DNA from: Tetradesmus obliquus
Lineage: Eukaryota; Chlorophyta; Chlorophyceae; Sphaeropleales; Scenedesmaceae
Assembly (NCBI GenBank): GCA_030272155.1
Contig: CP126204.1
Location: 2,905,501 to 2,969,500 of the forward strand
Reading direction: 5' to 3'
DNA: 64,000 nucleotides
Shown one piece after another: positions 373 through 63,960 of the stretch (positions are counted from its first letter, which is position 1; each line of letters opens with the position of its first letter). The notes beneath the pieces were generated by a model, which was given only the letters and a program-made list of their open reading frames with translations, was not told where the DNA came from and searched no databases. The position numbers and the translations under genes were made by a program.

Positions 373-466
373 GGGCTTCCCCGTGCAGCACTTTGTAAGC
401 AACCGTGCCGGCCTTGTGGTGGCCTTCTGGGGCTGGGCGCTGCTGCTGTTTGTCCCAGCACTCACA

Positions 467-529
<63 letters not shown>

Positions 530-617
530 AGGGGCTTCCCGTGGAGCACTTTGCCTCCAACCGTGCCGGCCTTGTGGTGGCGTTCTGGGTGCTGCTTCTC
601 TTTGTTTGAGCCACTCA

Positions 618-656
<39 letters not shown>

Positions 657-760
657 GCTGCTGCAGGGGCTTCCCAGTGCAGCACTTTGCCTCCAACCGG
701 CCCGGCCTTGTGGTGGCGTTCTGGGGCTGGGCGCTGCTGCTGGGCCGCGTGCAGATCAGC
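373..760 (+). repeat. Exon-echo array, 3 copies, dioxygenase exon start
   Basis: Copies begin at 373, 532 and 667, each straight after a CTG run ending in CAG. They encode variants of a GFPVQHFASNR segment. Only the third continues into the rest of the exon. Spacing is 159 and 135 bp; the differences are mostly CTG run length. Confidence 0.85.
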
Positions 761-1747
761 CAGACCGACTGGAACAGCAAGGGCGAGGTGTTTGGCTCCA
801 TCTTCAACCACGTCACCGTGGGACGCTTTGCTGACAGTGAGCTACTGAGCTGCTAGTCTATTTGTGTTTTTGAGGCGTACTGCAGGCTGCACTGCGACCA
901 GCTGCGCTGGCACTCGGCTTCATCTGTAGTCATGTCACTGTGGGGCGCTTTGCTGACGGTGAGTGGCGGGGCTGCCAGTTTTTGTTTTGAGGCTTACTGT
1001 AGCCTACAGTGCGACCAGCTGCAGTGGCACTTGCCTTCACCTGTAGTCATGTCCCTGTAGGGGGCCTTAGCTGATGGTGAGCGTCAGGCTGGCGGGCGCT
1101 GCGCTGCAGACCTGCGGGCAATATGTGGACATGTGGTGCACCATGATGTGTCGGCGTGACAGCTGCAATGGCGGTGGAGCGAGAGTGTAATGGTGACTTA
1201 CCTGCGTGGTGCTACATTGCAGCTCTTGATCGCATCAAACGTGACAATGCTGCCGCCGCCACTGCTGCTGCTGCCGCCGCCGCCACTGCTGCTGCTGCTG
1301 GCTGCAGTGTACACGGAGCCTCACAACGAGTACACCAAGAAGGGCGATGACAAGAAGCTCTCCTTCCACAGCGACCAGGTGAGGCAGCAAATTGCAACTT
1401 GTTTAGGCTTATGTATGTTGGTATTGCTATGCTTCTCAGCTTCAACCTGAGGTAAGAGGTTCAGAGACAGTAGAGTGATGGTGAGAAGCTCTCCTTCAAG
1501 AGCGACCAGGTAGGGCAGCCCCTGAATTGGAAAGCGGGTGTTGTATGTTGCTGTCGCTATGCTTCTCATCTTCCAACTTCGAGTTCGTGCTGTGAGCGAG
1601 AAGTAGCACAGAAATGGTACCAGCTGTGTATAGAGTAGCAGGGATGGACATTGTGTGCTCGCAAGGTCAACAGCCGCCTGTTTATGCGGAGGTGTGCAGC
1701 CGCAGTTACACAATGTCATACACATCTAGCCCCTGTTGCTGCTGCCA

Positions 1748-1799
<52 letters not shown>

Positions 1800-3409
1800 G
1801 CCACCGCCGTCAGGGCGCCACTCACCTGATTGCGCTGCTGTCGCTGAGTGCTGCCACGCTGCTGCTGCTGCCGCCGCCAGGGAGCCACCGACCTGATTGC
1901 GCTGCTGTCGCTGAGTGCTGCCAAGGAGGGCGGCGAGTCGCAGCTGGTGTCGGCCATCACCATCCACAATGAGCTGCTGCGGCGCGGGCGCAAGGTGCGC
2001 ACATTGTATATTGATGTATATGGTGATGTGTAGGTCTGCCATGCATTGCTGTGTTGATGGCAGTTGACTGGTGTCGGCCATCGCCATACACAACGAGCTG
2101 CTGCGGCGTGGGCGCAAGGTGTGCACAAAATAGACCAGTGTTATGGCCTTTACAAAGGTTCCATGTGCACTGCCTTGGCAACGGCAGCTAGTGTCAGCCA
2201 TCGCCATCCACAACGAGCTGCTGCGACGCAGGCGCAAGGTGGGTTAGCCATTAAAGGGTTCGGTCACAGTGGCATGTCAGCATGAGTTCCATGCACAACT
2301 GTTTATGATGTATTCTACAACATCAGCCGCATCAGACGACCAAATGGCCATCACACGCCCTGCAGCAAACCACCGCTTTCAACGTAGAAGCTATGGTGTG
2401 CTATAAGCTAACGCACACCTTTTCATCCCTGCTGCCTGGCACTCCTGTATGTGCTGACACGTGCAACACATTGTGTGACGTGTTACCCTGCATGTTATGT
2501 AACATGTCGTGTAAAAGGATGTGGTGGAGGTGTTGCCGCGCCAGGCATCTGGCACATGGTCAAGCAGGGGACGCCGCGCATATGAAACACCTCAGAACAC
2601 ATGTTACGCCACCTCATGTTTAAAAATTTGTGACATGTTATCTGCTGCTTGTTATTATTCTTTTGTAACAGGACCTGGTGGAGGTGCTGTCCACGCCAGG
2701 CATCTGGCACACGGCCAAGCAGGAGACGCAGCGCAGCGCCCTGCCTAATGCTGACGGCAGCTATGCTGAGTATGAGGAGACGCAGCCCTTTGAGTACCAT
2801 GGCGGCTACCTCAGCGTGCACTTCGGGGCCAGGAAGTTTGCAGGTGTGGCCATGCGGCATACATTATAATGTTCACAGTAGAGATAATCACGCGTATTTG
2901 TTATTTACCAGGATGAGGGTGCCCTTATGCAGCTGACCCAGCTAAGCTCGCATAACATGCTCCTGTGGTACGCCAGCACGTTGGGCTGGCAGAATGACAC
3001 CTGCAGGAGGAGGTCAGTTGGGTTGTCGCCCTCGCTTTTCATCCTTTGCTGACGTCTCTGCCCACAATCATCCTCACTTTTTGATGCGCTGCAGACACGG
3101 CCAAGCAGCTGACCCCTCTGCAGGAGGAGGCCATCTGGGCAGTGGCTGCCATCGCAGAGGACCCTGCCTTCCACCTGAGCCTCAAGCTGGAGCCAGGGGA
3201 CGTTGAGCTGCTTCGTGAGTTGCGATGTTTGTATTGTTCAATTGATCACTCGTAGAAGAACTTATGGTTGAGTATAATCATTAGGATGACGTCACACAGG
3301 TGCAGGTGTTTACCTACCTAGGTGTATACGTACATAGGCATGGAAGGGGTGGTCCCTGCCTTCATGTGAGATGGTGGACGGCAGTAACTGCCACCTGGTT
3401 GCTTACATG

Positions 3410-3466
<57 letters not shown>

Positions 3467-3678
3467 AGACAACCCCAGCACATTCCACGCACGCACCCAC
3501 GTGGTGGATGGGCACCAACCACCACATGCTTATCCAAATGCTGCTGCTGCTGCTGCCGTCGCTGCTGCTGCTGCAGACAACCCCAGCACCTTCCATGCTC
3601 GCACTCACGTGGTTGACGGTACCAACCGCCACCTGGTGCGCTGGTGGGTGCACTGCCCCCCCCGCAGATGCTTACATG

Positions 3679-3710
<32 letters not shown>

Positions 3711-4269
3711 TTGCCGCTGCTCCTGCTGCTGCTGCTCCTGCTGCTGCTGCTGCCGCAGACAACCCCAGCACCTTCCATGCCCGCACCCACGTGGTTGACG
3801 GTACCAACCGCCACCTGGTGCGCTGGTGGGTGCACAGCGACAGCAACAAGCGGCCTGTGGCACCACACTACGCGCCACGCAGCAACGTGGGAGACATTGG
3901 CGGGTGAGTGAGCGCTGGGATGAAGCTGAGTTGGATTTTCACAGGCGGCCTGTGTACTAAGCGCGCGCATGGGGCAGTGTATGTTGACACACGCTGTATG
4001 CGATGTGAGCAATGCCGAGCGCTACAAACAATGCAGACTTATGCAGCCTGCTGTTTCCAGCTTCATACCCGCATCGACAAATTGGCTTGCAGAACATCTC
4101 ACGTAACAGCACTGCTGCCGCTGCTGCCACTGTTGCTGCTGCCGCTGCTGCTGCCGCCTGCTGCTGCTGCAGCTTCCTGGTGCCGCACTACCCCGACCTG
4201 TCCAAGCAGCGGCTGCCGCTATACCCCTACAGCAGGCACGACGGCTTGGGCCAGTCACATGTGGAGTGA
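667..4269 (+). CDS. TauD/TfdA-family Fe(II)/2-oxoglutarate dioxygenase-like protein, 3' part of gene
   Basis: Exons 667-836, 1308-1378, 1881-1994, 2672-2843, 3095-3214, 3759-3903 and 4173-4269 join with matching phases, giving about 296 residues to the stop. The 5' exons were not found and probably lie left of the window. The family hydroxylates small organic acids using Fe(II), O2 and 2-oxoglutarate; the substrate here cannot be read. Visible motifs are the metal-binding pair in FHSD (exon 1308-1378), a distal His in TFHART and the RHLVRWW stretch in exon 3759-3903. The order matches the complete paralogue at 44517-49552. Compared with that paralogue, a loop of about 15 residues between exons 2672-2843 and 3095-3214 seems to be missing. 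An open segment in that intron (2912 to about 3000) could be a lost or alternative exon, but it meets a stop in the phase left by the preceding exon. Most exons are flanked by partial copies of themselves. Confidence 0.72.
1811..2240 (+). repeat. Exon echoes flanking both ends of dioxygenase exon 1881-1994
   Basis: An upstream echo (about 1811-1860) repeats the exon start, an ALLSLSAA segment. Two downstream echoes (about 2064-2116 and 2190-2239) repeat the exon end, an IHNELLRRGRK segment, and each keeps a GT directly after the final AAG. The copies therefore extend outward on both sides of the functional exon. Confidence 0.82.
3368..3845 (+). repeat. Exon-echo array, 4 copies, around the distal-His exon
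   Basis: A diverged partial copy lies at about 3368-3410. Acceptor-bearing copies start at 3469, 3577 and 3759. The shared core is HNPSTFHARTHVVDG once the split codon is restored. The last copy continues in frame to the donor at 3904. CTG runs separate the units. Confidence 0.85.
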
Positions 4270-5482: not shown

Positions 5483-6444
5483 TCATCTGCGCACAAGCGA
5501 AGGCAGCTGCTGCGACAGTGCATTCAGGTTTGCCATCTTACGGCCGGCCCCCGGCCGCTGCTGCTGCTGCTGCTGCTTCCCGCCCGCATCCTGCCCCACC
5601 CCTGCAGCCGCCACCATCTGCTGCTGCATCTGCATCTGCTGCGAGTACGCAGCAAACTGCCCTGCTGCTGCTGCCGCCGCGCCTGCCGCACCTCCCGGCA
5701 GTAATCCTGCCATGGGATTAGCCATTCCTGGCAAGCTAGGCACCATTCCTGCAGGCACAGAAGGGTTTGGGATCATCCCAAGCTGCCCTTGAGGCCTCGG
5801 CCAGCCTGCTGGACTGAAAGGCAGCGACTGAGAGCCGCCACGTGCTAAGGCGGCAGCAGCAGCAGCATTCATCCCTGCTGCTGCTGCTGATGTGGCTAGT
5901 GCAGCAGGAGGCTCTAGAAAGGCCTGTGCCTGGTGTTGGATACTGCTGATCAGCTTCGCAGTGGGATTGCCTGCTGCCGCACCCTGCTGCTGCTGCTGCG
6001 ATTGAGGTGGTGATGATACTGTAGGTACCCAGCCGCCGGCCACCTGCTGCTGCTGGCCCTGTGCAGCCGCCGCCGCTGCTGCTGCTGCCGCCGCCTGCTG
6101 CGCTGCCATCATAGGGTTGAACATCATAGGGTTGAAGCCTGGATATGGCAGCGGCATAGGCATTGTAGGGAATCCCGAGGGCAGCATAGGAGGGCTTAGC
6201 ATAGCTCCAGAGCCCATTCGCTGCATCGCAGCCTGCTGCTGCTGCCATGCTGCCATTGCCATCTGCTGCTGCTGCTGGTGCTGCTGGTCCAGGGGGTTTG
6301 ACAGACCACCCATCGCTGCGGATGCTGCTATTGCTGCTGCTGCCGCTGCCGTTGCCGCAGCGCTTGCTTGTGCTGCTTGTGATGTTGGGACAGGTACCAT
6401 GCCGTTAGCAAAGGCAGGCGCCTTCAGCCATCCACCCTCCAAGC

Positions 6445-6478
<34 letters not shown>

Positions 6479-6664
6479 TGGCATCCAATCAGTCAAGCTG
6501 CCTACCCGCTGGCCAGAGGCCTTGTTGCTACCAGCAGCTGCCTGTTTCTGCTGCTGCTGCTGCCTCTGCTGTGGCACCCAACCAGAGCTGCCACCTCCAC
6601 CTGCTGCTGCAGCAGCACCTGTGCCTGCCCCAGGAGTAGGCATGAAGCCAGGCAGCAGCTTACT

Positions 6665-6706
<42 letters not shown>

Positions 6707-8818
6707 AGGCACCCAGGCACCCCCTGCAGCAGCGGCAGCGCCGGGTGTAGGAACGAAGCCTGCTGGCACCTGCTGCTGCTGCTGCTGCTGCTTAGGCTGC
6801 TGCTGCACTGTGTAGTGCCCAGGCCCAAGCATAGATCCACTGCTGGGAGACACTACCCCACTATAGCCCTGCCACTGCTGCTGCTGCTGCTTTTTCTTTG
6901 GATCCTCGGGCATGACATGCTGCATCTGCTGCTGCTGCTGTGTGCTGCTGTGTGGGTTGCTGTGCTGCCAGTGTGATGCTGGCATTGCTAGCCAAGTGCT
7001 GCTCGAGGCTCCAGCAGCACGTACTGGAACCATGCCCTTTGGCAAAGCCGCCTGTTGCTGCTGCTGCTGCTGCTGCTGCTGACCTGAACCTGCTGGCGCT
7101 GGCGCTGCTGCTGCTGCTGAGGGGCTGCCGAAACCACCTGCTGTAAACATTGGATCATTGCCCAAATCAAGCAGATCGTCGGGGATGTCGCCTAGATCTG
7201 TGTCGATCAGCATCAGGTTCTGGCTATCCTGCCGCTGTGCCTGCTGCTGCGCCTGCTGTTGCCGTGTCAGCGGCTGCTGCTGCTGCTGCTGTTGCTGCTG
7301 CTGTTGGCCCCTACGAGGCCGCTGTGTAGCAATTGAGCCACTCGCACTTGCACTACCACTACCAGTACCAGCCGCCGCTGCTGCGCTGGTTGTTGAGTAG
7401 TTAATGCAGCGCTTGGGTGGGGCCTGAGGCTTCTGCTTTGCCTTTGCAGCAGCCTGCTTGGCTGCACCCTGCTTGCCTGGCTGCTTCCCATGCTTGCTGC
7501 TGTTTGAAGCGGCACCCAAGCTCGCCGACGCTGCTGCTGCTGCTGCCCTGCTGCCAGCTGCATGTGCCGGCACTCGCAGTGGCGCTGCTGCTGCCCCTGC
7601 TGCTGCATTTGTGGTTCGTCCTGCTGCTGCAAGCATCTTGGCAGGGGGCCCAGAGAAGCTGGTTGAGCCTGCATGCGGCCGCTTGCTGCCTGCAGTGCTG
7701 CTGCTGCCGCCCGCTGCTGCTGCTGCCGATCTGGTGTGTGCTGCTGCTGAAGCGACCAGCAGGTGTGTGTTGAAGGTGTCTAGCAATGCAGCAAGGTTGC
7801 CTCGCGGCCGCCTGCGAGAGCGATGCAACAGAATGCAGCGCAAAGAGTAGGTAAGTAGGACAACTCACAAAGGTTCGATGCTCAGCATGTGCAAGGGTGT
7901 GCAAACATGATCACATACTTTCTGCACCGTCACTGGCGCAGCTATGTGGCACATCAGCGAACCCTTGCATGGACGCACCGTGTTCGCTGCACTCTATTTT
8001 CGCATCCACTTCTACTCTTCCACACACCCTGCCACAGCAAACCTACACTCAGCACAACACATCAGCACATCACACCAAATTGCATCATTATTGTCATATC
8101 CAGTGCGGTACCACTTACCTGTGTGGTGCCAGGGACCTCCGCCGCCTGCCATGTGGAGCAGCAGCACCAGGGTGACCCTCCATGCCTACCACAAGCATTA
8201 AAGAAGACCCCACCCCTCTGCTGCCCCTGCCGGCCCCTGCAAGCACTGCCGCATCGCTGCTGCTGCCGCTGCCGGCAGCGCCGCCGTTGCTGCTGCTGCT
8301 GAAGCCGCGCTGCTGCTGCTGCTGCTGCTGCTGCTGCAGGACGGTAATACCCCCGCCCACCCCGCTGGCAGCAGCAGCAGCAGCAGCGCTGTTTCCTGCA
8401 AGGCCATACTCAGGCGGGATCGCAGGTGTGGGCAGCCGCGGTGCAGGTGACAGCTCTACAGTAAACCCCGGATCGCCCCGCAGCTTAGGTGACAATGACC
8501 TCACCAAACCAACACCCCCAGCAGCACCAGTACCTGCCAGCTGGTGTGTTACTATGGCACCCGGGGGCAGCTGCCCAGGCGCTAAACCCCCTGCTAAACC
8601 CAGGCCAGACAGCGAAGGAGCCTTCAGCAGCGGCTTAGGCAGGGGAGGCTTGCCTGCTGCTGCACTTGCGACATCTACTGCTGCTGCTCCATACGCCATG
8701 GCATTCAAAACAGCGCTGCCTGCACCATGCAGGGAGCTTCCAGGGCCATAGCTGCCAGCTGCTGCTGCTGCTGCACTGCCGGCGTAGCTTGCAGCTAGCA
8801 AGCCACCAGAAGCCCCAT

Positions 8819-8853
<35 letters not shown>

Positions 8854-9929
8854 CCGCCCAAGCCACCCCTGCTTCCTGCAAGCAAGGCTGCAGAGCCATT
8901 TGCAGATAGCTTTGGAGTACCTGCCCTGTTAGGGTTCAGGTTGCTTGCACCACGCTTGCTCTTGCTGCCGTGTGAACCCCGCAGCGCAGCAGCAGTACCC
9001 CCAGCGCTGCGGTTGCTGGTGGTGCTGATAGGCGGCGTTGACGGCCGCGCCTGTGCTGCTGCTTTGGCTGCCAATGCGGCTGCTTGCTTCTCTGCTAGGG
9101 CTTTGCGAGCTGCGCAGCGCTGCTGGTGAAGCCTGAAACGCAGCGCGAGCACGGGCCGCTTGCAGGAGCTGCAGCTGACCAGCATCGGCGCTGCTGCTGC
9201 AGCTGCTGCTGCCGCTGCTTGCAGGACACTGCTGGCGTTGGCGCCTGCTGCGTCGCCTGCTCCCTGATGCTGCTGCTGCTGCTTCAGCTGTTCTAAGCTA
9301 GCTGCATCTCCGGTTGCTGAGTGATTGGGGCTACTGCTGCTGTTGTTAGGGCAGTTGTGGTTGGGGTGACAGTCTCCTGCAAGGCATTGCTTGCTGCTGC
9401 AGGCAGCAGCACCATCTGCTGCTCCAACAACTGCCCCATTCGCTTGCTGCTCCTGCTTGATTCCCTGGTCTTGCTGCTGCTGCTGCTGTTTGTGCGCCTG
9501 ATCCTGCCATTGCTGCCGCTGCTGCTGCCGCTCCTGCTGCTTCTGGAGCACCACTTCCTGCAGCCAACCTAGCTCAGAGTGGTGAGTGTATGTTGTGCTG
9601 TCTAGCAGGTGCAGTGTTGCCTGCAGCTGCTTCAGGGACTCTGCGGCCTGTTGCAGCTGCTCCTTGGTGCATTCTGATGCTGATGCGGCCTTTGCTGCTG
9701 CTGCTGCTGCTGCCTGGTTTGTGCTGGCTGAACAGGGATCGCCTGTGCTGACACAGCTGCAGCAGCACAAAAGCAGTGGCAGAACTCAACAACACAAACA
9801 AGGCATGTATGTAGCTCTGCTGGCTGACCGGCTGGCCGCACGTAAAGGTGATAACCATAGCACTGGATTGATGCGGAGCGCGTGGCAGCTTTGACCTGCG
9901 CTGCTTGTGCTGCCAACCGCCGCTGGCAT
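5483..9929 (-). CDS. Large low-complexity protein with an SGF11-like C2HC zinc finger
   Basis: Two long exons, 8119-9742 and 5483-7811, join with matching phase across a GT-AG intron. A short first exon (9896-9929, ATG at 9929) also fits, giving about 1328 aa, but this start is weak. The protein is dominated by Gln, Ala, Gly and Ser runs. The one clear motif, at 9114-9173, is C-x2-C-x11-H-x3-C with a preceding RF. That spacing and the RF match the zinc finger of SGF11 of the SAGA deubiquitinase module; ataxin-7-family fingers are an alternative. Before it is a short helical region at about 9545-9660. The second exon carries only disordered Q-rich tracts plus scattered Pro/Met-rich stretches, the style of transcriptional coactivators. 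A nuclear chromatin role is inference; the residues outside the finger were not recognised. Confidence 0.62.
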
Positions 9930-11768
9930 TGCAACTGTCCTTGCAGGACAGCAGCTGCAGGTTGAAGCGGCAACATGATGGCGGAGCTGATGCACTGCTC
10001 AATACACCTGGTCGGTCTGCACATCTGGCGCTCATCAGCTGCTGGTGTTGCTCTGGCTGCTGTTGTACCAGGGCTTGCAGGAAACTAGCTTGACCAGCTC
10101 TTGCTGAACTTCTGTATGTCTAGCAGTCAGAACCAACAACTGCAACAAAAAGATAGGTGCTGTTGACGCTTGTTCCCACTGGGTGCAGGACCCGCTGCCA
10201 GCAGATTAGGCATGCTGCGTCAACATCCTGTGCTGTGCCTGCTGCATGCTGCTGCTGCCCCAGACTCGACAGCAACAGCTGGGGTGCTGTACTTTGGCTG
10301 CTTCTAGAGCGAAAAACTCACTCTATAAGCCCAGGAGGTGGCTGGCAGTCCTCTTTTGCGAAGCATTCAACCAGGCAGTCGAGCAGCAGCGGACAGTTGC
10401 TGGACCTGATGACCTCTGGCAGGCCAGCAGATACTGCCTCATTGAGCTCTGCGGCAGCAGCAGCGCATGCGTGCAATCGTGACTGTTGGTGCGATCAACA
10501 TGCAAAGCATGTAACAGTAAGATCATGCACTGCTGAAAAGGAGCAGCAGCGCAGGCTCATTTCGAGTGTGAAGAGCATAGTGCTGGTGCCTGGTGCGTAC
10601 CCGACAGGAGCTGATGCCTCCTGGAAGCTGCTGACATGATTACATCAAAAATAAAGCATAGAGAGCACAACAATCCCGTCCCCCTATCATACTGTCCAAC
10701 TTTTCAATGACGGGACTCGAAATATTTGCATTTGACAACAGTAATACCAAAACGTAGGGTGATAATTGTTTCGTGGCGTCCACAGCGGAGGCACAGGAAA
10801 ACCTATCACTGGCATGTGCCAACAAGGCAGGTCAGGACAAGGGTGCAGCGTCTGTCTTGGGGCATGGTCTGTGCTGAGTCACGATCTTTGTTTAAAACAA
10901 CTATGCAGTTCAAATGCAGCTAAGAAATCTACGAGTACCCTCTGCCCACAGTACAGCTGTGACTGCTCAATGCTGTGCTGGCGTCATGTGCTGCCAATGT
11001 TGTTGGCCACAATGCTCACGCACCAACAGCGACTAATGCATGTACAAACTGCTACACATTGAACGTAATATAAACCTATAGATAAACATAGCACAGTCTG
11101 GGGTTGTCTGTCGTTTAGTCTCGTACTCAAATCATGTAGACAGTTGCCTTGCAAACTGCTGAACTGGCTGCAGCATCCACACGCAAGCTCAACAAGCATG
11201 CAAGCTGACAGCTGCCAAAATAACCTAGCAGGCTGCAGGCTGCACTGCAGCCACGCAGGGTGAACCAGGGAGACACACGCTGCACAAATACTGGAGCGTG
11301 TCATACAGTCTGTCATATCACAGTGCATGCCGCATGGCGGCGCCATCATCACCTTGCCAATCACGGCTGCTGGCAGAATAGTCTGCCAGCCCTAATGTAC
11401 ACCTAATGTACAGCCGCATGCAGCTCATCTAAGCAAGCTTAGCAACAGCCCTAAACCAACACGTGTCACCCAAAAGAAGACAACCCTGCCTACATTGCTG
11501 CTGGCTAGCATATTTTGAGTATGCATATGCGCTGCCAGCAGAGAATACAGCAGCATACTAGGCAGCAGCTGCTGCCTAACCAGAAAATGCAGCAGCTGTA
11601 ACACAACACGGCTGTACAATGATGACCAATGGCACAGCAGCGCACGCATATTCTCAACAATCACTGAAGCGAGCTCACTCCTCCCAGCCAATGCAGAAGT
11701 ATGTTGTGACCCTTTGAGGGTCTCGTCAGCGTCGGACTGGGGTTCCCACTCCATTGATGAATGGAGTA
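9930..11768. other. Stretch between two - strand genes, no gene recognised
   Basis: Holds the upstream region of the zinc-finger gene and the 3' flank of the propeller gene. Short open frames exist on both strands, but none shows a recognisable domain or a supported splice pattern. Additional 5' exons of the zinc-finger gene could lie at 9950-10600. Confidence 0.45.
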
Positions 11769-11769
11769 T

Positions 11770-11774
11770 TTACA
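11770..11774 (-). terminator. Possible TGTAA polyadenylation signal of the propeller gene
   Basis: TGTAA on the - strand, about 530 bases after the stop at 12301 and just beyond the tail echoes. TGTAA is the usual signal in chlorophyte algae. Position only; weak support. Confidence 0.3.
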
Positions 11775-11812
11775 ATGACACGACAAATAATAACTACAAA
11801 CTGAAGGCCAGG

Positions 11813-12430
11813 TTGCATCAGTCCCAGCAGGGCAGCAGCTGCAGCCTGCACAGCACCGCATCCAGCACAGCCTGCTGCAGCTGAGGCACCTTCAGTGCTG
11901 CAGCCAGCCGCCCCGGCAGGCACTGCGCCAGCCCTGCGCTGCCAACCATCATGCAAAACAGACGCCCAGCTCTATGCAACCGCCACATCCAGAGCCTGTC
12001 AACACCTTGCGTGCCACACATGTATGCACAAATGGATACATAGACGAGTCCTGCTGACAGAGAGCTGGGTGAGTCAGTACCGCATCCAACACAGCCTGCT
12101 GCAGCTGGGGCACCTTCAACGCCTTCGCTAGCCGCCCCGGCAGGCACTGCGCCAGCCTTGCGCTGCAAACCATCATGCCCAACCATATGCCCAGCTCTGT
12201 GCAGCCGCCACATTCAGAACCTATCAACACCTTGTGTGCCATACACGTACTGCACAAATGGATACATAGACGAGTCCTGCTGACAGAAAGCCAGGTTGCA
12301 TCAGTCCCAGCAGGGCAGCAGCTGCAGCCTGCACAGCACAGCATCCAGCACAGCCTGCTGCAGCTGAGGCACCTTCAGTGCTGCAGCCAGCCGCCCCGGC
12401 AGGCACTGCGCCAGCCCTGCACTCTGCAGC
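11813..12430 (-). repeat. Terminal-exon echo array, 3 copies, propeller gene
   Basis: The last stretch of coding sequence (about 12301-12425, encoding a LPGRLAAALKVPQLQ segment) recurs downstream of the stop at about 12080-12170 and 11820-11930. Intervening sequence is shared too, for example around 12015-12060 and 12246-12288. Unit length is roughly 230-240 bp. The third copy is nearly identical to the coding copy over its length, including the final residues. Confidence 0.85.
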
Positions 12431-12751: not shown

Positions 12752-12794
<43 letters not shown>

Positions 12795-14468: not shown

Positions 14469-14510
<42 letters not shown>

Positions 14511-14843: not shown

Positions 14844-14887
<44 letters not shown>

Positions 14888-52307: not shown

Positions 52308-52361
<54 letters not shown>

Positions 52362-52570
52362 GGCTGCTGCGGCGGCTGCTGCTGCGGCTGCTGCGGCGGC
52401 TGCTGCTGCTGCTGCTGCCACATATTCTGCCGCTGCTGCTGCTGCTGCCACACCACCAGGTGGGCCAGGTCATCCTTAACCTGCCCAACAGCATGGCTAA
52501 GGCAGGGCTGCCCCTGGGCACATGACACTCAACCACTCACATGCCGATCCTGCTGTTGCTGCTGCCACAA

Positions 52571-52601
<31 letters not shown>

Positions 52602-53576
52602 CACAATTTCTGCCGTTGCGCTGCTGCCACACCACCAGGTGGGGCAAGTCATCCTCAACCTACCCAACAGCATGGCCAAGGCGGGCCTGCCCCTGGGCAC
52701 ATTCTTCCAGCTGTGGGCTGCCGTGGTGTCCATGTACACGCTGTGGCTGCTGTCCATGCTGTACCAGGAGTTCAAGCGGCGCGCGGTGAGTGGTTGAAGG
52801 CGGCCTGCTGCTGCTGCTGCTGCTGCAGCTGTGTCTGCATGCAAAGCAGCGCTTTGGGGCTGTTTTATAATGTTGTACCAGGGGTGAGCACCGCTGAGCT
52901 CGTTCTGCTGCCTTGTTACGCTGTTGTGCCTGCGTTTGCCTTGCAGATCAAGGAGGGCAGCTGGTTCAATGATGCTACGAGTGAGCGCCGCACCAAGGTC
53001 ACGCAGTACCATGACGTCATCGGTGGTGTCACCGGCAGGTGAGATTACTGCCCGCAGCTAGCTGCCCGCAGGCTAGCTGAGCAGCGGTGTATTCGCAGCC
53101 CCTTGTGCAGCAGCTGGATTCTGTGGCAGCAGCTGACCCAGACCCTCATAATGCATTGGCTTCGGAGGGTGTGACTGCTGCCTTGCCAGCTCACAGCCTT
53201 ACCTGATGCGAACGCCTGCTGCTGCTGCTGCCGCAGGCGCTGGTTGGGAGAGTTCGCTCGTGTGGTGACTATTGTGGAGCTGGTGGGGCTGTGCGTGGCC
53301 CAGATCATTGCTGGCTCCAGCAACCTCTACACACTGCACTCAGCACTTCCCAAGAGGTAAGCTGGATTTTGTGCAAAGTTATCATTGCAGCGTGCGACAC
53401 GATGCTGCATCCCAAATTTTAGCAACAGCCCTGCCTTTCCGCAGCAATCACTACATCAACAGCCTGAGCCGAATGTACAACAAAGGTGCTGCTGCCGCAG
53501 TCCTCTGCAGGATGTGGGTGTTTGGCATGGGGTCAATCACAGGGCTGATGGTGCTGGTGCCCTCTGTGCTCAACAA

Positions 53577-53617
<41 letters not shown>

Positions 53618-54719
53618 CCTCTGCAGGACGTGGGCATTTGTCAAGGGCTCGATCACAGGCCTCATGGTGCTGGTGCCCTCCATGCATAACCTGCTGCTGC
53701 TGCTGCCTCTGCTGCTGCTGCTGCTGCTGCTGTCCTCTGCAGGACGTGGGCATTTGCAATGGGCTCTATCGCAGGCCTGATGTTCCCAGTGCCCTCCATG
53801 CATAACCTGCTGCTGCTGCTGCCTCTGCTGCTGCTGCTGTCCTCTGCAGGACGTGGGCATTCGCAATGGGCTCTATCGCAGGCCTGATGTTGCCAGTGCC
53901 CTCCATGCGCGACAAGCTGCTGCTGCTGCTGCTGCCGCTGTCCCTCCTGCAGGACGTGGGCATTCATCATGGGCTCCATCACGGGCCTCATGGTCCTAGT
54001 GCCCTCCATGCGCAACAAGCTGCTGCTGCTGCTGCTGCCGCTGTCCCTCCTGCAGGACGTGGGCGTTTGTCATGGGCTCCATCACCGGGCTCATGGTCCT
54101 AGTGCCCTCCATGCGCAACATGCGCCTCTTCTCACTCTTCACACTCTTCACGACCACCTTCACAGCCATGTTCATGGTGGGAGCGAGCCTGAAGTCTGGC
54201 CTGAGCCTGGAGGCAGCGCAGCAGCCGCCACGTGGCACAGCTGACGTGTTCTCGGCGCTGGCAAACACCCTGTTTGCCTTTGGCAGTCACTGCATGCTTC
54301 TGTGAGTGGACCGTTGCTGCTGAGACAGTGACTGCAGGTTCAGCATGACCCGTGTGCACGCCTGAAAGGTTGATGTGTGATTGGCAGCAGGGATGTTTCT
54401 GATGTCAGCTAACATGGCTGTGCGCCGCGCACAGTGCAACGCAGGCAGTCCCTCACTGAACCCGTGCACCTGTCTTGAGCCAGTCCCCACTGTTGCCAGC
54501 TGCCTGCAGGCCTGCCTAGGCATTGCTGTCAGCGGCATGGCTGCGTTGCAGCTGGTCCCAGTGATGATGCTGCATCTGCATTCTGCACAGACGGGGACAT
54601 CGGCAAGCGCAACACAAAGTCACTTTGTGTATCAGTGACATGGCACAACAAAGTACTGACATGACCTAGACCGGCTAAACCCTGCAAGTCTCTCAATATT
54701 CCCACTGTTGCCGCCCCTG

Positions 54720-54783
<64 letters not shown>

Positions 54784-56864
54784 AGTGAGGTGCTTGACAG
54801 CCAGTGGGCCCCCAGCAAGTTTACCAAGGCCTTCGCCTGGTCCCAGGTGTACGTGACGGGGTTTCTGACCTGGCCCAATGCAGCATTCACCTTCATGGCA
54901 TTCCCTGCACTGTCATACAAGTTTGGTGGGTGGTTTTCAAATGTACCGTAGTGTCTTTTGAACTGCTGTTGCTGCATACATCAGGCGGATGTGACCCTGT
55001 TATGGTTGTCTATAGCATCCCCTGTCACCGGCAAAACTGTTGGATGAATGAGCTACGCGTGGTGTGTTCACACTTAACACCGGCGTAAGTTAAGGAAGGG
55101 GACGTGTGTGGCGATGAGGGTACCTCATGCGCCTCCACGCCTCCTACCATCATCACAAAACTGTTTGCTTGTGCATGTAATTGCTCACCTGCAGATGCAG
55201 CCACTAACCTCTTCTGCTGCCGCTGCCGCCGCTGCTGCTGCTGCTGCTGCTGTTGTCCCCTTATCTGGGCAACGCCTTTGCGGTGTACCCGCCAAGCACG
55301 CTCAAGTCTGTGGCCATTGTCACGATGGTGGTGCACCAGCTGACCGCCTTTGGCCTGTTTGTGCACTCGCTGACCTTGGCACTGCTGTTGCTGCTGCTGC
55401 CGCCTCTTTCTGCAGGCAACGCATTTGCGGTGTACCCGCCAAGCACGCTGAAATCTGTGGCCATTGTCACGATGGTTGTGGACCAGCTGACCGCCTTTGG
55501 CCTGTTTGTGCACCCGCTGTGCATCCTGTGGGAGAAACTGCTGCGGGTGCACTACAAGCCCAACTGGATCAGGCTACCTGCACGCATCCCTGTCGGTGGG
55601 TTGCTTAATGCGTTGGATTGGTTCAGACTTTGAGGTCAGGTCTCTGAAACTGTTGCTGTTAGCAGCCTCTCACCAGTGTACGCCAGCCCAACTGGGTCCG
55701 GCTGCCGGCACGCATCCCTGTCGGTAGGTGTTGGCGAACCCGAAAAAAAACCATGGGTTTCAGCTCAGTGCTTTGAGTTGGTCGCAATCAGCCCTCTCAT
55801 ATGGCCACTGTGATTGCAGCACAAGCCTTGAGCGCTGAGCACTTGTGAGCATTTGGTCATCACCAGCAAGCTTACCTTGTCCAATAGAAGCTGTCTTTAC
55901 TTCCCTTCAACTCGTGTGCAACACCTGATGATCCCTAACACTGCTCTTTCCTGCTATGTATGCGCCTGCAGCGCTGTTTGTGTGGTTTATCGCGCTGGCC
56001 ATCCCTTTCTTTGGTGTGGTCAACGACCTGCTGGGCACCGTAACCTGCTGTCTGCGCCTGCGGTGTAAACCCCGAAACCTCCTGCATTGTGTGCTGTGCT
56101 TGCAGCGCTGTTTGTGTGGTTCATCGCGCTAGCCATCCCTTTCTTTGGCGTGGTCAACGACCTGCTGGGCGCCTTCTGCGTGACCTTTGAGACCTTCATC
56201 CTGCCCCCGCTAGCCTTCAATCTGTACTACCAGGGCCGCCCAGACAGGCAGGCAGCCGCATTCCTCAAGCCAAGGTGAGTGCAGGCCATGTAGTGATTTG
56301 GTTCTGATGTTCAGCAGCAAACTTCAACCAATTGAGATAGAAACAACAGACATTCTTTTGTTGTGGTCAACGACCTGCTGGTTGCCTTCACAACATATTG
56401 TTCAAGCTGTTCTGCCAGGGGCGGCCTAACAGGCAGGCGGCCGCTTATTTCAAGGTGGGGCCTCTGAAGTTGAAACATAGGTTTCATGCCTGTGTTGATT
56501 CAATGGTGGACAGCCCCATGCAGATACTATCTGCTGATATGCAATCTGGCCGTCCTGTTTCCACTGCTGAGCCCCAAGCGGCTTAGCTGGGTGGCGTACT
56601 TTGCCGTCAACTGGTTCATCATTGCCACCACTTACCACTCACCTGCAAGCCATGGTTTGCCAAGTACTCACTAGTTCTCTGTGCTGTCTGCTGCTGCTGC
56701 CGCGCCGCAGGCGGCTCAGCTGGGCGGCCTACTTTGCTGTGAACTGGTTCATCATCGTTGCCACGCTGGTGGCTGGGCTGGGCTTTGGGGGCTATGCCAG
56801 CGTGAACGGTTTTGTGTCCTCGCTGCACAAGTTTGGATTCTTTGCCAAGTGCTACAACTGCTGA
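51421..56864 (+). CDS. AUX1/LAX-type amino acid/auxin permease (AAAP family)
   Basis: Ten exons join in frame: 51421-51529, 51711-51871, 52639-52785, 52947-53038, 53237-53356, 54056-54301, 54786-54925, 55416-55595, 56106-56274 and 56711-56864, giving 505 aa (Arabidopsis AUX1 is 485). AUX1/LAX proteins are plasma-membrane proton symporters that import auxin; relatives carry amino acids. The diagnostic order is present: VPWYQRLLWEGG, VILNLPNSMAKAG (helix 1 region), a TSERRTKVTQYHDVIGG loop, AGSSNLYTLHS, RTWAFVMGSITG, FGSHCMLLEVLDSQW, PPSTLKSVAIV, FFGVVNDLLGAF, and the closing GFGGYASVNGF with a KCYNC terminus like AUX1's. About ten hydrophobic segments fit the 11-helix fold. Residues 1-60 are hydrophilic and cytosolic. 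Auxin as substrate is inference. Confidence 0.9.
51820..52000 (+). repeat. Donor-side echo of AUX/LAX exon 2
   Basis: The exon end (LWEGGRPFDAFLT) and its GTGGGT donor recur at about 51939-51992 with a short internal deletion. Confidence 0.85.
52205..52700 (+). repeat. Three echoes of AUX/LAX exon 3 start in CTG-rich spacers
   Basis: The LNLPNSMAKAGLPLGT segment occurs at about 52222-52280, 52461-52525 and, functional, from 52639. Long CTG/CGG runs at about 52312-52450 separate the first two. Confidence 0.87.
53511..54130 (+). repeat. Six-copy exon-echo array at AUX/LAX exon 6
   Basis: Acceptor-bearing copies start at 53511, 53627, 53743, 53850, 53953 and 54056 (intervals 116, 116, 107, 103 and 103 bp). 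Each encodes a variant of RTWAFVMGSITGLMVLVPSM and then passes into a CTG run and a new CAG acceptor. Only the sixth continues into NMRLFSLFTLF. The interval changes follow CTG run length. Confidence 0.95.
54720..54785 (+). repeat. (CTG)n run forming the acceptor tract of AUX/LAX exon 7
   Basis: About 20 CTG units end in CTGCAG at the splice acceptor (exon starts 54786). Similar sense-strand CTG runs precede acceptors at 667, 27450, 40791, 42100, 49358, 53237, 34998 (-) and 31404 (-). Confidence 0.85.
55265..55735 (+). repeat. Echoes on both sides of AUX/LAX exon 8
   Basis: An upstream copy at about 55268-55370 encodes NAFAVYPPSTLKSVAIV and onward but lacks the AG acceptor. A downstream copy of the exon end (NWVRLPARIPV plus GT donor) is at about 55688-55724. 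Confidence 0.85.
55972..56660 (+). repeat. Echoes around AUX/LAX exons 9 and 10
   Basis: Exon 9 start (ALFVWFIALAIPFFGVVNDL) is echoed from 55972, 134 bp before the real 56106. Its end (QGRPNRQAAAYFK plus GT) is echoed at about 56414-56454. Exon 10 start (RLSWVAYFAVNWFII) is echoed at about 56577-56630. Confidence 0.87.
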
Positions 56865-59990: not shown

Positions 59991-61262
59991 TTTGGCTCCC
60001 GCCTGCATCGTTATGGTCACCTGCACACGCCCTCCTTGCTCCATCCCTGCTTTCGTTGCAGCAAGGCTGCCGGCATCCATGCACGGCAGGTTTGCCAGAT
60101 TCAGCAGCACCAAGCTGTTTGTCCTGCGGGCCATCAGCCGCCACCTAGCAGGCACGCTGCCACTGAATTCATTCCCACTAATGTCCATCACCTGCAGCGC
60201 TGTCATGCCAAAGTATGTGGCCGGCAGGGCGCCTGAGAGCTTGTTTGATGCCAGCTTTAGCTGCCGCAGCTGTGCCATGCCCTGCCAGGTGGGGGGCAGG
60301 CCTCCCTCTAATGCATTGCGGCTGAGGTCCAGCACTTCCAGGGCTGCCAGCTGCACGAATGCATCTGGCAGCTTGCCTGACAGCTGGTTGCCAGCCAGGC
60401 GCAGCTCCTGCGGGGGTCAGCACGTGCATAGCAGCAGCAACAGCAGCAGCAGCAGCAGCACTAAAATTAGTGGCATTCAAGCATGAGCGGCAGCGGCAGC
60501 AGCAGTGTCAATGTGGTGCGGCTGAGGTCCAGCACCTCCAGGGCTGCCAGCTGCACGAATGCATCTGGCAGCTTGCCTGACAGCTGGTTGCCAGCCAGGC
60601 GCAGCTCCTGCAGGCAGCATGTGAAGCAGCAGCAGGTGATGTGGCAGGGGCTATCTTCACAAAGAGGTGGCAATGGTGACAAGTGTATGCCAGCCAGCCG
60701 CAGCTCCTGCAGGCATCAGCATGCTTGGCATCAGCATCAGCAGCAGCAGCAGCAGAAGCAGTGATGGTTGTAGCCAACAGCGTTTCTTCCACAGCCAACA
60801 TCCTTGCGCTGCTGAAACGGGACGCGGCATGCTTCCTGTGGCAATGCAATTCACAGATGTTGAGCGGCAACATGCTTCCACTGTGCTTCGTCCACGCAAA
60901 CCCCTCATATGCGACGTAGTTACTGCTCAGTGTAAACGGCAGTAGCACTGGTTACATGAAATGCGCCCTGCCAGACTACAGCCTCTGGCCGCCAACGGAC
61001 CTTGAGCGTCGAGGCCAGTGCAGCCCGCTCGGCTGCCACCAGCAGCTAGCAATGTGCTTTTTTTGAACCACTAGTAAGAACCTCTAGTGATGATAACATC
61101 GTCATAATGTCTCTGGCCTGCCAACGTTTGATCTAGATATAACACATCAGAGGCTATGTCAGGCTTTGCCCCTCAGCTCACCTTGAGTGTCGGGGCCAGT
61201 GCAGCCAGCTGTGCGGGCAGCTGCCCCTGCAGCATGTTGCCGCTCAGGTCCACCACTGACAG
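59967..61262 (-). CDS. Leucine-rich-repeat exons (plant-type LRR), 3' end of a gene
   Basis: Exons 61182-61262 and 59967-60407 join in phase 0, encoding about 173 residues to the stop. Repeats follow the plant LxxLxLxxNxLxGxLP pattern: LSVVDLSGNMLQGQLP, ELRLAGNQLSGKLP, LEVLDLSRNALEGGLP, LRQLKLASNKLSGALP and LQVMDISGNEFSGSVP, five in a row, then a Met/Arg-rich tail without a membrane segment. LRR proteins mediate protein-protein recognition; no kinase or transmembrane part is seen. Upstream exons were not resolved. The papain-like exons to the right are on the same strand, so both may belong to one gene, but the only linking exon I found (61594-61667) ends in the wrong phase. Confidence 0.7.
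60407..60715 (-). repeat. Acceptor-side echoes of the last LRR exon, 3 copies
   Basis: Copies of the ELRLAGNQLSGKLP start occur at 60706 (short), 60607 (over 100 bp, through VLDLSR) and the functional 60407, each after CTGCAG or CCGCAG. Confidence 0.85.
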
Positions 61263-61780
61263 CTGCTCATGATAACCTCATCACGCCTAGGAAGCCATAT
61301 TGGCTGTTGCCAGCAGCCAGCAAGGTGCTATCAAATAGACACCATTCAACCATCACCCACGTGACAAAACATCTGGCGTGTCGTGTGCGGCAAACTCAAC
61401 ACATATGTGTGTGGGCCCAGCACATGTACATCCCCTTACTTGACAAACTCGGGTGTCAGTGACATATCAACACACCATGTGTCCCCTTCCTCCAATTGCG
61501 CGGGTGTTAAGTGAACCTCAGCAATGCACTGCAGGCAATGCCTGCTATACAGTGCATGCAGTGCATAGGCGTCGGCTGTGTGGTGCCACTCACAGGGACT
61601 GCTAGCCCTGGTAGCAGAGACCAGCTTGCCGTCATAATTCAGGCAGTCGTTGAGGCAGCAACTGGCTCTGCATAATTATAGGCTTATATGCCATGACAAG
61701 CCAGCACTGCTGCTGCATTATTGCATGATTATCATCATGCAATAACTAAATCAAATATTATCATATTTATAAAGACCTAC

Positions 61781-62184
61781 CTGGTGATTGCATGGCCGTG
61801 GCGCCTCACATGCTGCTGGATCTGCCTGCAAGCAGAACACCATGTAACACAGCAAAGCACTGAGAAGCATTGCCTTGCAGGCGGCGTAACACAGCAAGTG
61901 CTGACAGGGTGCATATGCACCATGCCCCGTAGTCTGTCGGCAAAGACACAATTGACAGCCACTGCTGTCAGCTAAGCCGAGCTTTTCAAGGCTGCGCTTT
62001 CAAAGACATGTACTTTTCAGTGACATCAGACATTTTCATGCATGAGCATGCAGCACCTACGTTTTTATGCATGCTCATGCAGCCCTTTGTGCCGTGTACA
62101 TCAACCAGCCCGTACACTCGCAAGCGCGCGTCTACGCGCGTCTCACCAGAAGGAAGACAGTGAGCTGAAGCTGCACTTTATAAA

Positions 62185-62231
<47 letters not shown>

Positions 62232-63960
62232 GTATTACGCGCGTCTCACCAGAAGGATGACAATGAGCTGAAGCTGCACTTCACCCATGGCAGGCCTCTG
62301 TCAGCAGCAGGGCACGCCTTGGAGCCCACAGCTGCGCAGGTCTGCTGCCACGCGCTGACCTCATACTGCTTATCCGTGTCCTCCAAAAAGGTGCCAGCGG
62401 TGCATTTGCTGGGCCGCAGCAGCTCAAAGTTTCCGTCCATGACTTCCTGCAGAGCTGGCTGGATCTGCCAGCCGGTGTCGCAGGTGCGGCCACCTGCAAG
62501 TCCAATGCAGCAGCATCAGCAGCAGCAGCTCAAATTTGCCTTCCAACACCTCCTGCAGGGCTGGCTGGATCTGCCAGCCTGTTTCACAGGTGCGGCCACC
62601 TGCAAGTGCATTGCAGCAGAAGAGCAGCAGCAGCAGCAGCAGCAGCAGCTCGAAGTTTCCGTCCATGACTTCCTGCAGGGCTGGCTGGATCTGCCAGCCG
62701 GTGTCGCAGGTGCGGCCACCTGCAAGTGCATTGCATTGCATTGCAGTGCAGTGCAGTGCAGCAGCAGCACTGTTTCCAGGCAGCAGGCTCTTGCCATGAT
62801 TGCCTAGTACAGCTGCTTATAAATAACTGCGAGCTTCGACGTCAAAGGATGGGGCCAGATCTCCATTCAGGTTTTACTATCGCTGCTTGCAAGCAACAAA
62901 ACAGTGCTCCACAATACGAAATGCATAACATCCAGGCCCACCTTTGCTGCAGAAGTAGATGCTGCCAGCGGATATGGAAAAGGGGAAGCTGCGCGGGTCC
63001 TGCTGCAGCGAGGCGCCCAAAGCCGCCTCTATGCCAGCTGCAATCGCATGTGCCACACAAGTCCCGCAGCGCCCCTGGCGCCTAACGCGTGGCAGCAGAT
63101 TGACCCCTCCAGGTGTCTGGCTGGCGTTGTTGGTGGCATACGCAGCGGGCACAGCGCCAAGGTTGTACAGCTGCAGCAGCAGCTGCTGCAGCGACGCCTC
63201 GCTTTTGAAAGCAGCGGAGGTTTTGGGAATTCTGCACGCAAAGGAGCCGGGGTTCTTTGCACATATGCGTGTCGCCTGCCAGCCTATGGTGTTGACAATG
63301 GCGCATGCTGCCTGGATGTCTGGCGGTGGTTTCCCCGGATACCCAGAGTAGCATATGCCATAATAGTTGCAGTTGATCGTGCAGTAGGCTGCCTGTCCGT
63401 TGGGTGCTCTGATAGTTTCTAGTGGCTCCAAGCAGCCGCAGCCTGCTGGGGCAGCCGGCAACGCCCCCATATTGTAGTCGTAAACTTACGGGAAGCCCAT
63501 ATAGATTCCCGTGTTTCTCGCGGTAGTCTGCATGACATACAATGACAGAAGAGTGTTGCGGTTGTTAATGCAGCACTGGGAACGCGTTTCATCGTGCGAT
63601 GCAATCAGCCTGGCGGTAGTTGCTGAACTGCTTGACAGCTGCACAAGCTGCTGTTCATCTTCTTTGCCCTCAACTCATGCTAGCGTTCTCAGCAGGTGCG
63701 CAGTTGTGCATTTACCATGCCTAAAACTGTCATTTCACAGCCTGTAAGTATCTGAAGAATACGATGGATGATACTGCTGCAACTCTTGTTGCCTGACGGC
63801 GCCATGGCGCTGTGCTGGCATTACCTGATGTGTGGCAGCGCACTGCTGGCACGCCATGCGGAAGGCAAGTATCTCAAGATGCATGTTACAAATGCGTTCA
63901 AGTTGTTTGACTTTCCTCACCGACTGCTGGTCTTCAAAAAAGTCCAAAAAAGTCCAACTC
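61781..63960 (-). CDS. Papain-like (C1) cysteine protease, partial, runs off the right edge
   Basis: Exons about 62942-63470, 62250-62493 and 61781-61825 join in phase. The first contains the active-site Cys context RRQGRCGTCVAHAIA, preceded by the oxyanion-hole Gln and followed by ISAGSIYFCSKG at the usual second-helix position. Exon 2 continues with RTCDTGWQIQPALQEV, matching the GGW--DAL stretch of papains, and exon 3 gives WQIQQHVRRHGHAITR. The catalytic His and Asn exons were not identified. An N-terminal charged helix at about 63835-63960 (DFFEDQQSVRKVKQLER) and a small exon at about 63491-63530 may belong to the pro-region. Cys-rich flanks (YCTINCNYYGIC) suggest an extracytosolic or vacuolar protein. 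A possible further exon is 61594-61667. Confidence 0.68.
62135..62285 (-). repeat. Donor-side echo split by an AAT microsatellite
   Basis: The end of exon 62250-62493 with its GTGAGACGCG donor lies at 62240-62283 on the + scale, and a copy lies at about 62138-62180. Between them is an uninterrupted (AAT)n run of about 15 units at about 62187-62232, the only long AT-rich microsatellite in the window. Confidence 0.82.
62493..62740 (-). repeat. Acceptor-side echo array of protease exon 2, 3 copies
   Basis: On the - strand, copies start at 62719, 62599 and the functional 62493 (120 and 106 bp apart). Each encodes GRTCDTGWQIQPALQEV or a close variant, then a CTG run. Only the last continues with LLRPSKC. 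Confidence 0.9.

Follow-up and report, generated by a model that had tools for sequence, protein, structure and literature searches.

Why are the genes in a stretch of Tetradesmus obliquus DNA accompanied by partial copies of their own exon ends, and how were these copies made and kept? The window, i.e., the whole 64,000-nucleotide stretch that was analyzed (contig C14; all coordinates are positions within it), was annotated with a self-trained gene finder, Pfam and one published protein. Three window genes that the gene finder had fused were split by hand, and because it labels many copies as exons the exon baselines are somewhat inflated. Five of six window proteins have a Pfam family match. 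The window contains seven genes, and its CTG-rich 5-19 kb region is largely without gene models:

667-4266, TauD gene
22299-27914, gene without Pfam match
29314-35607, minus strand, hnRNP_Q_AcD gene
about 38503-42938, succinyl-CoA ligase alpha gene
45308-49299, second TauD gene
about 51717-56861, Aa_trans gene
60020-63037, minus strand, LRR gene

Copies were found at the following exon ends (coordinates and strand of the copies, then the exon end copied; percentages are exon-part identity where given):

373-448 and 532-594, plus strand, two upstream copies, 5′ end of TauD exon 667-836 (89.5%, 95.2%)
2068-2238, plus strand, two downstream copies, 3′ end of exon 1881-1994 (92.2%, 89.1%)
2522-2580, plus strand, one copy, 5′ end of exon 2672-2843 (89.8%)
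23389-23724, plus strand, three copies spaced 134-138 bp, 5′ end of exon 23799-24047 (all codon positions carry mismatches)
24122-24158, plus strand, one copy, 3′ end of exon 23799-24047
24896-24937, plus strand, one copy, 5′ end of exon 25023-25234 (homology stops at about TGCAG)
25298-25473, plus strand, two copies, 3′ end of exon 25023-25234
26157-26439, plus strand, three copies, 3′ end of exon 25789-26105
26693-26877, plus strand, two copies, array unit about 122-126 bp, 5′ end of exon 26944-27131
29622-29820, minus strand, two copies in 130-bp units, 5′ end of exon 29314-29560
30028-30326, minus strand, two copies in about 200-bp units, 3′ end of exon 30435-30665
30892-31167, minus strand, two copies in 206-bp units, 3′ end of exon 31304-31404
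31908-31957, minus strand, one copy, 5′ end of exon 31675-31812
32392-32501, minus strand, one copy, 3′ end of exon 32649-32867 (six mismatches, third codon positions only)
34575-34634, minus strand, one copy, 3′ end of exon 34912-34998 (85.5%, two gaps)
35212-35263, minus strand, one copy, 3′ end of exon 35472-35607
41058-41482, plus strand, four copies with acceptors in about 123-bp units, 5′ end of succinyl-CoA ligase alpha exon 41551-41670 (tblastn with the published protein)
41736-41791, plus strand, one copy, 3′ end of exon 41551-41670
42619-42700, plus strand, one copy, 5′ end of last exon 42764-42938
42980-43054, plus strand, one copy past the stop codon, 3′ end of last exon 42764-42938 (97.3%; one position-2 and one position-3 change)
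45537-45746, plus strand, two copies, 3′ end of exon 45308-45494 (first copy: homology stops at GTG)
46566-46646, plus strand, one copy, 5′ end of exon 46703-46851
47591-47637, plus strand, one copy including the following donor, 3′ end of exon 47422-47533
47983-48022, plus strand, one copy, 5′ end of exon 48084-48174
48457-48500, plus strand, one copy, 5′ end of exon 48624-48732
52220-52283 and 52460-52523, plus strand, two copies, 5′ end of exon 52639-52785
53511-54020, plus strand, five copies in units of about 103-116 bp with CTG tracts between them, 5′ end of Aa_trans exon 54056-54301
55269-55372, plus strand, one copy, 5′ end of exon 55416-55595
55685-55723, plus strand, one copy, 3′ end of exon 55416-55595
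55972-56039, plus strand, one copy, 5′ end of exon 56106-56274
56578-56628, plus strand, one copy, 5′ end of exon 56711-56861
60517-60607, minus strand, one copy, 5′ end of LRR exon 60192-60407 (98.9%)

A further, older copy of the 5′ end of exon 42764-42938 was read by eye at about 42481-42550. The LRR gene encodes a repeat protein, and its copy may be a true protein repeat.

The copies are partial, not complete exons. Leaving aside the four upstream succinyl-CoA ligase copies (41058-41482), 48 splice-anchored copies were counted at 31 exon ends, in all seven window genes and on both strands; the earlier note had reported at least 35 copies on both strands, as is the case here, but had spread them over nine or ten genes. 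Chance is excluded as their source because of two contrasts: self-comparison of the window (blastn, E 1e-6) yielded 78 direct repeats <3 kb apart and 3 inverted ones, and a protein-level scan returned 209 matches beside 368 exon ends vs. 2 on the antisense strand. In the same self-comparison, no direct repeats ≥3 kb apart were found in the window.

Similar copies were present in random genome stretches and at nine chaperonin loci. At least one direct repeat <1.5 kb apart was detected in 16 of 20 random 10-kb stretches, and none in the other four (L003, L004, L008 and L018). Position and copy counts exclude L017 (59% near-repeat), the basis being 318 of 328 kb, and pairs with <35 unmasked bases or a spacing ≥1,500 bp were dropped. 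Two sets are used below: 144 de-duplicated copies drawn from 194 pairs, and 207 copies that are the splice-anchored part of 220 in the 318 kb.

Tandem duplication across a junction places copies of a 5′ end upstream and copies of a 3′ end downstream. This was observed for 63 of 63 and 80 of 80 copies, respectively, with a single internal copy completing the 144; exon-interior copies were hardly seen. The one-unit head-to-tail adjacency that characterizes small tandem duplications was found, and the geometry fits in 143 of the 144 copies, bearing out the earlier claim that copies lie outward of the real exon. That the in-frame copy is the one adjoining the rest of the exon also holds, as a consequence of this geometry. 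Unit length peaked at 110-149 bp (109 of 209 adjacent pairs), and units >150 bp were fewer, although planted duplications of 100-200 bp were recovered in 22-24 of 24 trials. At spacings of 60-320 bp, the aligned length was ≥0.9 of the period, as in a head-to-tail unit, in 97 pairs and <0.75 in 160. No correlation was seen between period and exon length (0.038, n = 96). Exon parts of the 144 copies carried 803 substitutions vs. 52 gaps, and 41 of the 207 copies had a frameshifting gap.

The intron bases common to a copy and the real flank numbered ≥40 in 69 of the 144 copies, 13-39 in 26, and ≤12 in 49. The earlier argument that common intron sequence speaks for local tandem duplication and against retrocopies carries over to only some of the copies. 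In the 49 copies with almost no intron flank, exon parts were no more diverged than those of other copies. Among copies sharing ≤12 intron bases, AG was kept in 12 of 13 and GT in 29 of 33. The copies lack complete splice sites: at the broken edges, donors (score >3) occurred at 0.08 vs. 0.18 in the control (n = 63) and acceptors at 0.36 vs. 0.35 (n = 80), none above control. A duplicated cassette or mutually exclusive exons, which need both splice sites, were therefore rejected. AGGT was present in 25.6% of the 207 copied exon parts vs. 20.8% of random exon segments, with no clear excess. With neither this excess nor splice sites above control at the broken edges, the previously suggested route to new introns by duplication of AGGT is not supported.

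Mismatches between copy and exon affected 4.4, 4.7 and 17.0% of codon positions 1, 2 and 3, a third to first/second ratio of 3.7 (3.1-4.6) for all copies and 2.7 (2.0-3.7) for the window. We reason that an exon under constraint and its neutrally evolving copy would show a ratio of at most about 2. Simulated neutral copies reached a third-position share of 0.44-0.50 vs. 0.656 observed, and the idea that each copy is simply a neutral duplicate of its neighboring exon was rejected on these grounds. The copies had lost little GC: GC-to-AT relative to AT-to-GC changes stood at 1.43 (1.17-1.79), or less precisely at 1.56 (0.91-2.49) for the window copies alone, when decay to intron composition predicts 4.2. 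Because the ratio of 3.7 exceeds about 2 and the GC ratio is 1.43, not 4.2, much of the divergence would precede the birth of the copy. Excess third-position divergence was alike in exon-copy (0.124, 0.104-0.143) and copy-copy comparisons (0.116, 0.089-0.145). At positions 1/2 in non-CCT genes, copy-copy divergence (0.103, 0.058-0.137) was about twice the exon-copy value (0.058, 0.045-0.069), in line with neutral decay of the copies.

The explanation that we favor, and hold to be about as probable as all else together, is that silent tandem duplications decay neutrally and are reshuffled through recombination with diverged allelic forms of the exon concerned. Segments mostly of 110-149 bp are tandemly duplicated at many genome places, perhaps during break repair. 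A unit across an exon-intron junction or a stop codon would leave an outward partial exon that is skipped or untranslated in normal mRNA; the duplication would be close to silent and therefore kept. After birth the copy would decay neutrally, and its exon part would stay recognizable because one partner is the conserved exon, so that exon ends would look more favored than they are. Recombination with strongly diverged alleles would swap copy or exon, with loss of pair linkage, and copy and exon would therefore often differ by allelic, mostly synonymous, changes. Much of their difference would thus predate the copy and have arisen while both lineages were functional.

From the one haplotype analyzed, allele divergence would be about 12% at third positions. 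The draft genome is 208 Mb in strain DOE0152z vs. 109 Mb in UTEX393 (PMC5552973), and NREL 46B-D3 is likely diploid (PMC7955037); both would fit diverged diploids. Against such an allele pool, a value near 12% is very high for allelic divergence at third positions, and NREL 46B-D3 scaffolds were paired at 95% identity (PMC7955037). Neutral decay is opposed by the shortage of stop codons, with 3 in copies vs. about 18-21 predicted, 5 vs. 14.4 expected in frameshift-free copies, and, in another count, 6 of 4,089 codons. The favored explanation is also opposed by a CCT array of five copies with zero change at positions 1/2 and by an L022 copy with 10 third-position changes in 23 codons and none at positions 1/2. 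Finally, the 49 copies with almost no intron flank and yet equally alike exon parts speak against it.

The earlier note had placed the duplication tendency at exon ends; local tandem duplication at many genome places is upheld, and any such seeding is weak at best. In the window and 19 random stretches, pairs detectable by their non-exonic part alone numbered 77 at the laxest threshold: 47 touched exons (expected 35.6), 15 were intron-only (16.4) and 15 intergenic (25.1). The excess over random placement is small, and it persists as thresholds tighten (44 of 67, expected 31.2; 36 of 52, expected 25.3), when intron-only pairs numbered 9 (13.7) and 4 (10.2), respectively. With exon sequence included, which we think inflates the counts, 46 of 57 full-length pairs (expected 28.7, null maximum 40) and 72 of 91 partial pairs (33.2) touched exons, as did 15 of 19 full-length pairs of ≥85% identity (9.3, null maximum 17). 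Visibility accounts for much of the apparent preference for exons.

Duplication actively targeted at exon ends or genes, e.g., through transcription, R-loops or positioned nucleosomes, is an unlikely reading. In the window and 19 stretches, repeat coverage does peak at exon ends, the full-length and ≥85% identity counts exceed expectation, and intergenic pairs fall below it; the persistence of the excess at stricter thresholds, with the full-length count above the null maximum, argues against dismissing the seeding as weak. However, the excess on non-exonic sequence is only 1.2-1.4-fold, intron-only pairs hardly deviate from expectation at the laxest threshold, and with 63 5′-end vs. 80 3′-end copies no single splice signal is favored. 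With a similarly small chance, exon ends and their copies may be recombining micro-arrays: new partial copies would keep forming, diverged alleles would renew them, and now and then a copy would pass its sequence back to the exon.

Slightly more doubtful is that exon and copy still undergo gene conversion, which would keep exon parts alike as intron parts drift. It accommodates the exon-only class (49 of 144), equal in exon divergence to the class with intron homology, and the partial pairs, which peak at the same spacing. By our reasoning (only the conversion-free case was simulated), conversion alone would not lift the ratio above about 2, and ≥40% third-position change in 15 of the 209 protein-scan matches is too much for steady conversion.

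That the copies are functional, either because they serve as alternative exon ends or because selection acts in some other way on what they encode, seems improbable to us. The copy-copy third-position ratio of 2.8 (2.1-4.0), the stop-codon shortage, the array with synonymous differences only and published models P0001 and P0121, which include copies in frame, argue for it. However, amino-acid changes are random rather than conservative (BLOSUM62 −0.41 vs. −0.40 in random re-draw, n = 243, copies with frameshifting gaps left out). Copies past stop codons (4 after 25 terminal exons) show the same lean, with 7/8/27 mismatches by codon position. In addition, broken edges lack splice sites above control, 41 of 207 copies carry a frameshifting gap, and the inserts are absent from relatives' proteins P0003, P0004, P0008 and P0123-P0125. 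Purifying selection on the copies, suggested by the third-position bias, was set aside in view of the random changes, siteless edges and post-stop copies. Selection via rare transfer back to the exon was judged too weak by our own uncomputed estimate. Local concatenation of two haplotypes during assembly is very improbable: differences look allelic and a diverged diploid state is possible for the species, but unit length is narrow, arrays hold up to five copies in several distinct versions, substitutions far exceed gaps (803 to 52), and copies decay randomly.

Introners and other dispersed intron elements are repeated sequences with splice signals inside introns. The copies resemble them in carrying such signals inside introns, but match their own neighboring exon. 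A search of the genome with window positions 1-1000, which hold two copies, matched only itself, and an introner family was rejected on this basis and on the lack of distant direct repeats in the window. Small tandem duplications can stem from repair of staggered breaks or paired nicks (PMC8355091, citing Schiml et al. 2016). Head-to-tail doubling of short segments is described in PMC8355091 as common in genomes; ours share this doubling, but have a unit mode of 110-149 bp, compared with induced breaks with overhangs down to 43 bp. As in intron gain by tandem duplication (2010; PMC2891723), exon sequence is duplicated beside introns. Unlike there, AGGT is not in clear excess, broken edges are siteless, and it is introns already present that lengthen, not new ones that appear. 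Hypervariable minisatellites with interallelic exchange (PMC2599865) also form arrays whose copies differ like alleles, but here units are larger, copies number one to five and the sequence is unique and genic. A search of the open literature library found no description of exon copies in Scenedesmaceae, which is not proof of absence in print.

Nothing about the copies suggests a novel class of element; they have the look of ordinary duplications that are silent, although they hint at unusual gene diversity. The 207 splice-anchored copies in 318 kb form a sizeable natural collection of tandem duplications that straddle splice junctions, and their narrow unit size is a constraint that any repair mechanism must explain. 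They make testable (i) intron growth; (ii) how decoy splice sites next to almost identical exon sequence are passed over by the spliceosome; and (iii) whether untranslated copies can carry allelic history. Gene predictions for Tetradesmus are cluttered by such copies, which at least two published records (P0001 and P0121) include. If the loci are recombining micro-arrays, non-coding copies would locally store synonymous exon variants and supply them to the exon, sequence that is never translated would show a protein-like pattern of evolution, and introns in the lineage would owe their growth in large part to tandem duplication. If the copies reflect a pool of diverged alleles, the species would be among the very diverse eukaryotes.

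Self-comparison of the window (positions 2,905,501-2,969,500 of the 4,804,715-bp contig C14, in a genome of 104.7 Mb in 17 contigs) at E 1e-6 detected 78 direct repeats at <3 kb spacing, none further apart, and 3 inverted repeats. Its size and GC agree with the figures published for T. obliquus UTEX393, which include 108 Mb, 57% GC and a mean intron of 462 bp (PMC5966456). Exon positions came from a gene finder self-trained on these sequences (donor CAG/GTGAG, acceptor TGCAG/), with a coding share of about 17-18%, and five of the six window proteins had a Pfam match. The features named in the window are:

667-4266: TauD-type dioxygenase gene (Pfam)
5483-17976, minus strand: CTG/GCT-rich segment, left unmodelled by the gene finder, in which three stop-to-stop frames are very long (793, 556 and 1891 aa)
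about 38503-42938: succinyl-CoA ligase alpha gene
40750-40790: long (CTG)n tract directly abutting a CAG acceptor, as at other acceptors
45308-49299: second TauD-type dioxygenase gene in the same 64 kb (Pfam)

The (CTG)n tracts may substitute for the pyrimidine tract at these acceptors.

Within the window, 31 exon ends had 48 splice-anchored partial copies. At least one copy was found for 23/38 exons in the window, 18/86 in 19 random stretches and 42/92 in nine Cpn60/CCT (chaperonin) loci (exon score ≥15); by comparison with the random stretches, the window is richer than average. Near direct repeats occupied 0-59% of bases, at varying density, in 20 random 10-kb stretches, being absent from 4 and reaching the maximum in stretch L017; stretch L005 starts with a tandem array (1-1135, units of about 191 bp). 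A whole-genome Pfam search, independent of the trained gene models, yielded on C16 three consecutive Cpn60 matches at profile positions 42-69, 38-71 and 40-101. The exon-end copies that the earlier note described at nearly every gene are real and widespread in the genome.

Placement was one-sided: among 144 copies, those of exon 5' ends lay upstream (63/63) and those of 3' ends downstream (80/80), with one internal copy, as expected if a tandem unit spans the junction. The spacing of 209 adjacent pairs was 110-149 bp in 109 cases, <100 bp in 20 and ≥300 bp in 7. Planted duplications were recovered in 22-24 of 24 trials at 100-200 bp and in 13-20 of 24 at 70 bp. Neither the 110-149-bp mode nor the drop above it is therefore a detection effect; most units shorter than about 60 bp would escape detection. 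At the intact edge, AG was kept in 58/63 copies and GT in 65/78 (three classes summed). At the broken edge, where the exon match stops, neither donors (0.08 vs. 0.18 in the control, n = 63) nor acceptors (0.36 vs. 0.35, n = 80) were in excess, hence most copies fall short of a complete exon. The proposed link to AGGT was not supported, the motif showing no clear enrichment in the copied exon parts.

Repeat coverage was highest at exon ends, and 128/162 pairs touched exons (68.5 expected). This raw excess is open to visibility bias, because intron sequence loses its recognisable similarity sooner than exon sequence does. With the count restricted to pairs detectable by their non-exonic part (window and 19 stretches), 47/77 touched exons at the laxest threshold (35.6 expected; null 97.5% point, 45), 15 were intron-only (16.4 expected) and 15 intergenic (25.1 expected). 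Stricter thresholds gave 44/67 (31.2 expected) and 36/52 (25.3) exon-touching pairs, with 9 (13.7) and 4 (10.2) intron-only. With the chaperonin loci added, the same three thresholds gave 78/114 (65.0 expected), 63/89 (49.0) and 50/69 (39.0). With exon sequence included, 46/57 full-length pairs touched exons (28.7 expected; null maximum, 40), as did 15/19 of those with ≥85% identity (9.3 expected; null maximum, 17). Pair counts are not independent throughout, since one array can supply several pairs. Of the duplication tendency seeded at exon ends that the earlier note had proposed, a residual exon or gene preference of about 1.2-1.4-fold remains, and a strong preference is unnecessary.

Exon and copy differed by 4.4, 4.7 and 17.0% at codon positions 1, 2 and 3 (207 copies). 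The third-position share was 0.656 (144 copies) vs. 0.44-0.50 in simulations that paired a neutral copy with an exon allowed only synonymous change, a difference that could suggest that the copies are protein-coding. However, amino-acid changes were as radical as random (-0.41 vs. -0.40, n = 243), 41/207 copies had frameshifting gaps, and four copies past stop codons, found after 25 terminal exons, had a similar lean (mismatches 7/8/27). Third-position changes were near balance (GC loss 317 vs. gain 221; ratio 1.43 [1.17-1.79]), against a predicted 4.2 for decay toward intron GC, and third-position excess divergence was similar for exon-copy (0.124) and copy-copy (0.116) comparisons. Both would be expected if the copies began as random alleles of one functional exon and then decayed neutrally. 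At positions 1 and 2, two copies of non-CCT genes diverged from each other about twice as much (0.103) as copy from exon (0.058), as independent decay requires.

We propose that a 110-149-bp unit is duplicated in tandem, probably during break repair, the origin described for small tandem duplications in PMC8355091. The outward copy would be silent, the mRNA using the outer splice sites, as the intact real exons and the insert-free proteins of relatives suggest. Neutral decay of the copy, supported except for a shortage of stop codons, would be accompanied by exchange with diverged alleles, to which the codon-position and GC evidence points.

Some results fit poorly. Stop codons were scarce (3/2,866 codons vs. 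about 18-21/2,805 in simulation; 5 vs. 14.4 expected in a second comparison). One CCT delta array had five copies with positions 1 and 2 unchanged, and in one L022 copy all 10 changes across 23 codons fell at third positions, unlike the other strongly diverged hits, most of which changed at all codon positions. In the exon-only class (49/144), flank similarity was nearly all gone and exon divergence was no higher. Concerted evolution, or use of the copies in some way, would be compatible with these results.

The best matches of the window succinyl-CoA ligase alpha protein were two predicted forms of T. obliquus OEZ86_008607, one of 386 residues with two in-frame succinyl-CoA ligase copies and a normal one of 326. 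A CCT delta segment is repeated in predicted OEZ86_009859 and the repeat is missing in predicted OEZ85_001296; a seven-residue segment is repeated in both. Given the in-frame copied exon ends in OEZ86_008607 and OEZ86_009859, entries for this species in protein databases may contain false repeats.

The phenomenon is best described as abundant small tandem duplication that leaves its most visible traces at exon ends; the parts that deserve attention are (i) the narrow unit size, (ii) the residual exon excess and (iii) the allele-like divergence.
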